64,000 nucleotides of DNA from contig CALWVS010000003.1 of assembly GCA_944385095.1 (NCBI GenBank), positions 86,509 through 150,508 on the forward strand, given 5' to 3'. Below, one piece after another: positions 23,508 to 24,989 of this stretch. Made by a program: the position numbers and the translations under genes. Position 1 is the first letter of the stretch, and every line of letters begins with the position of its first letter. Below the pieces are notes generated by a model that saw only the letters and a list, made by a program, of their open reading frames with translations, ran no database searches and was not told the origin of the DNA. Origin of the DNA: an uncultured Oscillospiraceae bacterium (GTDB lineage: Bacteria; Bacillota; Clostridia; Oscillospirales; Oscillospiraceae).

Positions 23508-24446
23508 ATGTTAGATATTGGAGAGGTATTTTCCGCATTATTGGGACTGTTTCTTCTGATTGGAGTTGGCTTTGCAGGTGCAAAAGTGGGTGTGTTATCC
23601 ACAGAGCATACCCCACAGCTCAGTCGACTTCTGATGAATGTCACCATGCCAGCAACCCTGTTTTCTGCTCTGGTACAGCCATTTGATGCTGCTTTTATGA
23701 GAGAAGGGGTGCTCATTGTCCTGTTAGGAAGTGCATTTATTTTACTGGGTGGGGCAATTAGCTGGGGCTGTTCCTATCCATGTCAGGTTAAAAGCAGCCG
23801 CAGGGGCTGCTGGGTCTTTTCCTGTATGTTCAACAACAATGGATTCATGGGATTTCCCATTGCATTGGCACTGTTTGGGCAGGAGGGACTGGCGTTGGCA
23901 GCTTTTTTGAGCATCCCATTTAGTATACTCGCCTTTACGTTGGGTGCAAAACTCATGGTATTGGATGGGCAGAGGACAGAACAAACAGAAACCATTTCAT
24001 GGAAATCTATTTTGCTTACACCAGTCAATGGGGCAATGGTGTTGGGATTGTTATTTTATATTCTGCAAATTCCATTGCCATCGGCATTGAGTACACCCAT
24101 TACCCATTTGTCCAATGTGACAACCCCACTTTCCATGTTGATTACAGGAATTACCTTGTCCGGTGGACAGGTGAAACAGATTTTCTGTAATCTGGATGCA
24201 ATCACAGCAAGCCTGATGCGGCTTTTGATTTTGCCGCTCCTGACCGTTGCAGGATTAAGGCTGGTTCCGATTGACAACCCAGTTTTTGTAGGTGTCATGG
24301 TTGTGATTATGTCTATGCCTGCGGCAGCAGTGGGAACCATTTTGGCAGATACTTATGGGGCAGATACTGAATTTGCTGCTGAGACAGTCTTTCTATCTAG
24401 TATTTTATGCCTTGTCACCATCCCGTTGATGACGCTTTTTCTGTAA
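23508..24446 (+). CDS. AEC (auxin efflux carrier) family transporter
   Basis: Membrane permease of 312 residues with about ten helices. The start LLGLFLLIGVGFAGAKVG, the NVTMPATLFSALVQPF segment and CMFNNNGFMGFPIALALFG are typical of the family (MleP/MdcF type). Bacterial members carry malate, malonate and related organic acids; the substrate here is unknown. GAGGTGAAACG precedes the ATG. It ends against the terminator shared with the minus-strand RNA candidate. Confidence 0.87.
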   Translation: MLDIGEVFSALLGLFLLIGVGFAGAKVGVLSTEHTPQLSRLLMNVTMPATLFSALVQPFDAAFMREGVLIVLLGSAFILLGGAISWGCSYPCQVKSSRRGCWVFSCMFNNNGFMGFPIALALFGQEGLALAAFLSIPFSILAFTLGAKLMVLDGQRTEQTETISWKSILLTPVNGAMVLGLLFYILQIPLPSALSTPITHLSNVTTPLSMLITGITLSGGQVKQIFCNLDAITASLMRLLILPLLTVAGLRLVPIDNPVFVGVMVVIMSMPAAAVGTILADTYGADTEFAAETVFLSSILCLVTIPLMTLFL

Positions 24447-24857
24447 AAAAGAAGTAACCCTTGACCTGACGATTTACTCACCGTACCAGTCAAGGGTTAC
24501 TTCTGTTGCTCCTTGTTATCTAACATCAATTGTTTACCTCACTTTCTACAGATTCACATTCACCACCGAGCCGAATTACAGGTACCAACTGCCCCATGCA
24601 ACCTTCTCAAACGCCGCTACTTTCTGGCTCCTCCCTCATCTATGAGGTGCTACTCTGTTGTCAGGCGAGTCCGAATCCCGCATTCCTTCGTGATGTCTGT
24701 GTGGATTAGATACCGTGCTCTGTTAAGCAGCGAGTATGATAAACTACCTTTCTTCTCCACCTTGGCTGAACCATCAGCAGGGACATCTATATAAATTTGC
24801 TGCCCAACTGGGTATCTATTGGGGAAAGTTACTTACCACATTGGTATCACCCTTTCT
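24444..24857 (-). ncRNA. Unassigned structured non-coding RNA candidate, about 410 nt
   Basis: Between two genes lies about 410 bases with a consensus minus-strand promoter (24864-24892) at one end and a strong terminator at the other, and no convincing coding frame. The transcript holds many short perfect hairpins: TACCA/TGGTA, CCCA/TGGG, GCTGA/TCAGC and CCTCAT/ATGAGG. By eye it lacks the hallmarks of tmRNA, RNase P, SRP and 6S RNA. It does not precede a gene on its own strand, so a riboswitch is unlikely. The 5' end is inferred from the -10 position. Confidence 0.55.
24445..24503. terminator. Terminator shared by the AEC gene (plus) and an RNA candidate (minus)
   Basis: 15-bp perfect stem GAAGTAACCCTTGAC / GTCAAGGGTTACTTC with a 23-base loop. 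On the minus strand it is followed by six U residues, the better orientation. Confidence 0.88.
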
Positions 24858-24863
24858 GGCTAT

Positions 24864-24892
24864 AATATACCATAGAGCAATAGGGAAGTCAA
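24864..24892 (-). promoter_or_regulatory. Strong promoter of the RNA candidate
   Basis: Minus-strand TTGACT, exactly 17 bases, TATATT. No reading frame with a ribosome site follows it. Confidence 0.7.
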
Positions 24893-24957
24893 CTAAAATT
24901 TATTGAAAATCGACAATCATTTTTGAAAAAAATGAAAATGTATTCCAAATATAGTAA

Positions 24958-24980
24958 GGGCTGTCCAACATGGACAGCCC
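24958..24980 (-). terminator. Terminator after the DUF2461 gene
   Basis: 10-bp stem GGGCTGTCCA / TGGACAGCCC with a 3-base loop; the minus strand continues TTACTATATTT. It also insulates the RNA-candidate promoter downstream. Confidence 0.75.
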
Positions 24981-24989
24981 TTAGTGGTC

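Follow-up and report, generated by a model that had tools for sequence, protein, structure and literature searches.

Downstream of a DUF2461 gene, the minus strand of a 64,000-nucleotide stretch of DNA from an uncultured Oscillospiraceae bacterium (the whole analysed stretch, hereafter the window) carries a unit of approximately 410 nt, bracketed by its own promoter and a U-tailed terminator. What might such a unit produce, if it is followed by no gene that it could control? The original prediction described it as a gene-free orphan RNA, structured and possibly uncatalogued. Below, the limits of the unit are established and compared with known RNA classes, its coding content and structure are traced through relatives, and the possible functions are weighed.

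Limits of the unit and known RNA classes

The signals at the two ends of the unit were located as follows.

24887..24892, minus strand: −35 element TTGACT (promoter scan and sequence reading)
24864..24869, minus strand: −10 element TATATT, after a 17-nt spacer and with a preceding TG (promoter scan; recurs in relatives)
24450..24504, minus strand: intrinsic terminator hairpin, with the final codons and stop of a 3′ micro-ORF in its 5′ arm (sequence and folding)
24445..24450, minus strand: terminator U tract, T6 (sequence reading)

The predicted minus-strand promoter was found with both elements, the spacer and the TG. It matched the consensus at 10 of 12 positions (TTGACT-17-TATATT), and the transcript would start near 24857 (−). 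The promoter ranked first among 6 promoter-like sites in 3 kb; the scan by itself was not significant, as shuffled sequences contained 4.8 such sites on average. A loose form of the promoter pattern, followed by a ribosome-binding site (SD) and a short ORF, recurred in 58 of 59 related loci examined by script. In six loci of other families (L193, L190, L094, L089, L103 and L202), the −35 region resembled TTGAAA or TTGCAA by eye, with a similar AT-rich stretch, possibly an operator, 5′ of it.

The region 24444–24507 folded at −33.6 kcal/mol (z −8.0), and none of 200 shuffled sequences was equally stable. Of the predicted 15-bp U-tailed terminator, the hairpin and its T6 tail stood, but the main stem was 17 bp long by folding. 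A simple terminator scan did not include this terminator in its output; the length of its apical part is the probable reason. Over the full 419 nt, folding was only moderately better than in shuffled sequences (z −1.9; 7 of 100 shuffles equally stable). With a promoter and a terminator of its own approximately 410 nt apart, the stretch was an independent unit, as had been claimed.

In the window, the unit is flanked upstream by DUF2461 and VanW genes on the same strand and downstream by a Mem_trans transporter gene on the opposite strand, in agreement with the earlier statement that no downstream gene lies on its strand. A separate 13-bp terminator-like hairpin is present 3′ of the DUF2461 gene (24955–24983, −), so the unit is probably not the 3′ UTR of that gene. 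Among 62 loci, upstream genes were of the DUF2461 type in 24 and of the VanW type in 24, with both clusters identified via the window's own members and with many loci not long enough to include the two genes. The commonest downstream gene family was present in at most 8 of the 62. In 57 further units from outside the first genus set, which share four loci with the 62 (one of them the other-family locus), the nearest downstream ORF of at least 80 aa was convergent in 31 and co-directional in 23, and none was seen in 3. A leader of a downstream gene was rejected because of this lack of a conserved neighbour. A riboswitch was rejected likewise, since no conserved downstream gene was found for it to control, and the lack of a consistent downstream gene was also held against an attenuator or uORF leader.

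No Rfam family reached its gathering score anywhere in the 64-kb window, which bears out the view that the unit is uncatalogued by Rfam. A permissive search gave sub-threshold matches to microRNA, snoRNA, sRNA and plastid 3′ UTR families in the unit region, and most of the strongest of these lay over the terminator. A partial match to alpha_tmRNA (24643–24818, −; E 7e-6, 26.2 bits vs a gathering score of 50) is probably due to chance. As anticipated, the unit is not tmRNA, RNase P or 6S RNA: these identities were rejected because none of them had a gathering hit in the window and each was found elsewhere in the genome above its own cut-off. The suggestion of a raiA-type RNA or a member of another catalogued class was not borne out, and raiA-type RNAs had no match in the unit region up to E 10. 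In 20 distant loci, Rfam returned 13 gathering hits (12 tRNA and 1 Gut-1), none of which overlapped the element. The Gut-1 RNA (RF01706) lies upstream of the unit in L193 (2076–2149, +), on the opposite strand.

Two micro-ORFs at the ends of the unit

The stretch had been regarded as gene-free and purely non-coding. This did not hold, as its most conserved parts were two micro-ORFs with ribosome-binding sites.

24843..24857, minus strand: 5′ ribosome-binding site AGAAAGGGUGAUACC (coordinates from sequence; similar in relatives)
24833..24841, minus strand: 5′ minigene AUG-UGG-UAA (MW-stop), ATG-TGG-TAA in DNA (sequence; genus loci)
24536..24548, minus strand: 3′ ribosome-binding site UAGAAAGUGAGGU (sequence; similar in relatives)
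24497..24529, minus strand: 3′ micro-ORF TTG-ATG-TTA-GAT-AAC-AAG-GAG-CAA-CAG-AAG-TAA, M(M)LDNKEQQK-stop (sequence and relatives)

Both the 5′ and the 3′ ribosome-binding site resemble the complement of a 16S rRNA 3′ end. The 16S 3′ end was looked for in the source metagenome-assembled genome (MAG) and was not found, so complementarity beyond the SD core is putative.

At the 5′ position, an SD was followed in each of the 58 genus loci by M-[W/Y/F]-stop or M-Y-[R/K/S]-stop (MW 12, MY 9, MF 4, MYR 18, MYK 13 and MYS 2, each followed by a stop codon). By script, promoter, SD and short uORF were recovered in 58 of 59 loci; the 59th, from another family (L056), read MYS-stop by eye. Elsewhere, the aromatic second codon was not universal (MT, MI, MKR and MRM, each followed by a stop, were seen), the minigene was longer in L197 and L198, and none was seen in several units of other families. 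A minigene of 2–3 codons behind an SD was thus a property of the genus and not of all units of other families. The longer 5′ uORFs of L197, L198 and L213 shared an N-P-K core by eye (MNTARRNPKVTGK, MYTKRQNPKVTVR and MNRKNPKP, each ending in a stop). The distance from the minigene AUG to the AUG of the 3′ ORF was about 190–580 nt in the loci read.

The 3′ block consisted of an SD, (A/T/G)TG-ATG, the residues L-D-N-K, four more residues and a stop within the 5′ arm of the terminator. MLDNK plus four residues ahead of a terminator was present in 59/59 loci read. A near-exact scan for the 3′ module, with one genome per species, yielded 106 stretches with 112 ORFs. One of these was the start of a long protein (L167) and three were cut by locus ends (L114, L153 and L174); the remaining ORFs were short, each ahead of a hairpin. 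Deduplication left 116 units, L167 among them, in which Leu was encoded by TTA in 109, CTA in 5 and CTG in 2, Asp was GAT in every unit and Lys was AAG in 107 and AAA in 9, counts that are partly constrained by the search patterns. The codons were therefore left free in a further test, in which an SD plus TGATG pattern was run over 394 genomes of the order. It gave 46 matches, 30 of which were read: 17 were MLD[N/I/T]K micro-ORFs (Leu UUA 8, UUG 5, CUG 4), 11 started long ORFs and 2 were unrelated short ORFs. Since the variation at Leu was purely synonymous with codons free, the 3′ peptide appears to be under selection at the amino-acid level. The unit thereby holds a conserved small coding sequence of the kind expected of dual-function small RNAs. 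The near-invariant GAU (116/116) and AAG (107/116) hint at constraint on the RNA as well.

The codon preceding the ATG was ATG in 88 of 115 units, TTG in 26, GTG in 1 and CTG in none. This NTG-ATG double start, never CTG, suggests that translation starts at the codon before the ATG, giving M-M-L-D. After the K, 2 to 6 residues followed in the units read. The stop codon was located within the terminator stem in 110/115 units in a crude stem search, so that the short ORF overlaps the terminator as in attenuator and uORF leaders. A reading in which an upstream ORF stops at the UGA of UGAUG, seen by eye in a few loci, was rejected because the spacer before it shifts the frame in L010.

Distribution of the unit and its structured middle

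A BLASTN search of 99 genomes detected the element in 59 of them, namely the window's own genome, 57 of the other 60 in the genus and one of 38 that belong to other families of the order. The homologues that the original prediction proposed to seek by BLASTN were thus present throughout most of the genus. Of the three misses, G016 matched the 3′ module over 22 bases, at the end of a contig. In G029 (96% complete) and G042 (76%) nothing convincing was found, and their 5 and 4 pattern matches were at the level of the reversed-pattern controls.

When a 3′ pattern requiring Leu and Asp was run on 394 genomes of the order, it matched 32 times, in 4 genomes of the genus and 23 outside it (27 in all), and never in reversed-pattern controls; all 30 matches read were MLD-type micro-ORFs. 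The 3′ module was thereby detected beyond the genus in 23 of 390 genomes of the order (families f1, f3, f13, f15 and f19), and in 3 of 39 genomes from other genera of the same family. By these pattern matches, occurrence beyond the genus is patchy. A near-exact pattern was present in 7/394 genomes of the order, a similar pattern matched only the window's own genome among 393 in a class sample, and viral contigs contained no pattern match. The named genomes among the matches listed were mostly uncultured Oscillospiraceae, Clostridia or Firmicutes, together with Lawsonibacter, Flavonifractor, Pseudoflavonifractor, Oscillibacter, Ruminococcus, Ruminiclostridium and one Christensenella record. Cultivated carriers of the unit include Flavonifractor sp. 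An100 and Pseudoflavonifractor phocaeensis An858/An901. The window's genome has one copy of the unit. Tandem or multiple units, from 2 to at least 5 per locus, were seen in six loci (L094, L171, L178, L086, L150 and L185); their middles differed, several had visible promoters of their own, and some read MLDIK instead of MLDNK.

The middle of the unit varied in sequence and length, and the conserved blocks were two, the −10/5′ end and the 3′ end. No conserved reading frame was noticed in the middle by inspection. The middle domain was almost missing in some units, such as L103 and the second one of L185. In the window copy, the following elements were assigned.

24634..24647, minus strand: P2 hairpin CCUCA-UAGA-UGAGG with an anti-SD-like 5′ strand (sequence, folding, genus comparison)
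24657..24660, minus strand: candidate P1 5′ strand CAAC, which would pair with 24599–24602 (analogy with genus relatives)
24599..24602, minus strand: candidate P1 3′ strand GUUG (analogy with genus relatives)

A hairpin CCUCA-N4-UGAGG (or UGGGG) was present in 44/58 genus units, 118–128 nt 5′ of the peptide ORF; in 3 of the remaining units the variant was CCUCU or CCUCG, and in 11 the script located no such hairpin. The structure claimed for the unit gained support from genus homologues with covarying base pairs, which form a three-way junction ahead of the peptide ORF; both partners had changed in 12 of its 15 pairs. In this junction, 95.4% of cells were paired vs 86.5% in shuffled alignments (0/500 shuffles as high) and at most 58.6% in slid controls. 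Neither outcome named in advance as refuting the prediction, a significant Rfam hit or homologues that reveal a decayed gene or transposon end and lack covariation, was observed. The covariance model (A3/R1) was built on nine close relatives because MAFFT alignments (A1, A2) misplaced the P1 3′ strand in some rows. Its extension over 84 loci (A4; 32 matches, E up to 1) is an alignment fitted to the structure, with several weak rows and one spurious one (the second match in L050). An alignment-free duplex test of P1 gave a weak signal (p 0.056).

In the window copy, the junction model recovered P2 alone, with 6.1 bits (reverse strand 6.8), and P1 was recovered neither by the covariance model nor by folding. 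By model and folding, the central hairpin P2 is the one convincing part of the three-way junction in this copy. Outside the genus, hairpins such as CUCGCUUAAGAG were present in 18/69 representatives, against a mean of 1.4 and a maximum of 4 in shuffled sequences, for a pattern that was picked after examples had been seen. They were located 86–126 nt 5′ of the ORF in 17 of the 18. The motif UUUAUAUAGAU recurred mid-unit in several distant units (L056, L113, L199 and the window, 24785–24795).

Possible functions and comparison with known systems

The sequence comparisons support the existence of the unit, of both micro-ORFs, of selection on the 3′ ORF and of a structured middle in the genus, and the lack of a conserved downstream gene. 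They led us to hypothesize that the unit is a free-standing, ribosome-engaged micro-mRNA composed of a minigene, a structured domain and a micropeptide ORF. This broad statement is held with about even confidence, and each mechanistic step with less. In PMC8708949 (available text), a strong SD followed by a short ORF is reported to make transcripts more stable, and ribosomes are said to initiate repeatedly on such minigenes while remaining bound; the system of that study required active translation. These reported effects, the possible competition of P2 for an SD and the meeting of the 3′ ORF with the terminator are why the hypothesis is favoured.

Transcription from the autonomous promoter would begin almost at the 5′ ribosome-binding site, leaving the 5′ end open to immediate occupation by a ribosome or 30S subunit. 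The 2–3-codon minigene there would be followed by the structured domain and, at the 3′ end, by the second ribosome-binding site, an ORF of approximately 10 codons (M-M-L-D-[N/I/T]-K plus 2–6 residues) and the terminator overlapping its stop. Ribosomes docked on the minigene may protect the transcript and may tie its folding to the status of initiation or early elongation. The CCUC or UCUC strand of P2 is anti-SD-like and able to pair with an SD; it could compete for the second one and set access to the 3′ site. A ribosome on the 3′ ORF would run into the base of the terminator hairpin. The unit might act in trans through the micropeptide made from it, through ribosomes that occupy its 3′ end, or through both, and it may behave like a leader or attenuator RNA detached from any gene. 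We tentatively extend this to a new, gene-free class of regulators in gut Oscillospirales, in which an RNA would read ribosome status at its minigene of two or three codons and, by way of its conserved structured domain, convert it into a 10-residue micropeptide or ribosome capture, in trans.

The alternative that survives best is that the micropeptide, MMLD[N/I/T]K plus a few residues, is itself the product, encoded behind a long regulated 5′ UTR and acting in trans like the leader peptide peTrpL, for which such action is described in the available text of PMC7298713. The exclusively synonymous Leu variation, the NTG-ATG start and the occurrence of M-L-D-x-K in five families (with a search pattern that itself demanded Leu and Asp) all agree with it, but only about 6 residues are conserved, the near-invariant GAU and AAG codons hint at RNA-level constraint too, and the peptide has no known partner or export signal. 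We consider this reading possible, at clearly less than even chances.

On a somewhat less likely reading, the unit acts in trans as a structured RNA or one that binds ribosomes, e.g. as a place where 30S subunits are sponged up or parked, and its micro-ORFs just recruit ribosomes or stabilise the ends. This would account for the two SDs (with their putative 16S complementarity), the promoter-like sequence in 58/59 loci, the covarying genus junction and the excess of P2-like hairpins in other families. Such an RNA has no need of amino-acid-level conservation in a 3′ ORF, however, and its structured middle is nearly absent from some units; we regard it as unlikely.

More doubtful still is a transcription attenuator, in which ribosomes on the 3′ ORF would keep the terminator open and allow read-through into neighbouring DNA. 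The stop inside the terminator stem in 110/115 units and the 23 co-directional downstream ORFs (e.g. L086) are what it would predict, but in the window, as in 31 of the 57 further units (none seen in 3), the nearest gene downstream is convergent, and no downstream family occurs in more than 8 of the 62 loci, which makes this reading improbable. A divergent known large RNA (tmRNA, RNase P, 6S or raiA-type) or a mobile-element remnant, to which the partial alpha_tmRNA match and the tandem copies in a few genomes might point, is largely refuted and very improbable, as tmRNA, RNase P and 6S RNA lie elsewhere in the genome above their cut-offs and the unit is single-copy there, often stands behind the same upstream genes and is missing from viral contigs.

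The unit is near-universal in a large gut-bacterial genus and patchy in at least five families, yet no Rfam model detects it. It would push known conserved coding down to a two-codon and a ten-codon ORF on one structured RNA, and it offers a concrete system in which to study natural roles of minigenes and ultrashort peptides. Gene finders usually apply minimum lengths that exclude ORFs of this size. Among the main texts searched, no report of the unit and no mention of MLDNK was found, and the main texts of two surveys of intergenic regions (IGRs), PMC8632094 and PMC11109978, contained no Oscillospir-, Flavonifractor- or Ruminococc- term in the portions available. Within these texts, the family is apparently unreported.

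Attenuator leaders such as peTrpL combine a micro-ORF with RNA structure ahead of a terminator, as the unit does. Unlike peTrpL, the unit has no conserved downstream operon, carries two micro-ORFs and contains no run of a single amino acid. The dual-function small RNAs SgrS and SR1 are, like the unit, stand-alone RNAs with a small ORF, and their ORFs are several times longer. We know of no other family of structured orphan RNAs that carry a micro-ORF at each end. The uORF/sORF motifs of the IGR surveys likewise join a structured motif to conserved start and stop codons, but they precede a consistent main gene, which the unit does not (PMC8632094 and PMC11109978, available text). The closest parallel to the 5′ end is provided by axe-txe mg2 and LEE1, where, as described in the available part of PMC8708949, two-codon minigenes behind SDs affect their transcripts; there the minigene precedes a protein gene, whereas in the unit an ORF of approximately 10 codons and a terminator follow about 190–580 nt on. 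With its minigene and its conserved small ORF, the unit shows kinship with known kinds of RNA despite the novel combination.
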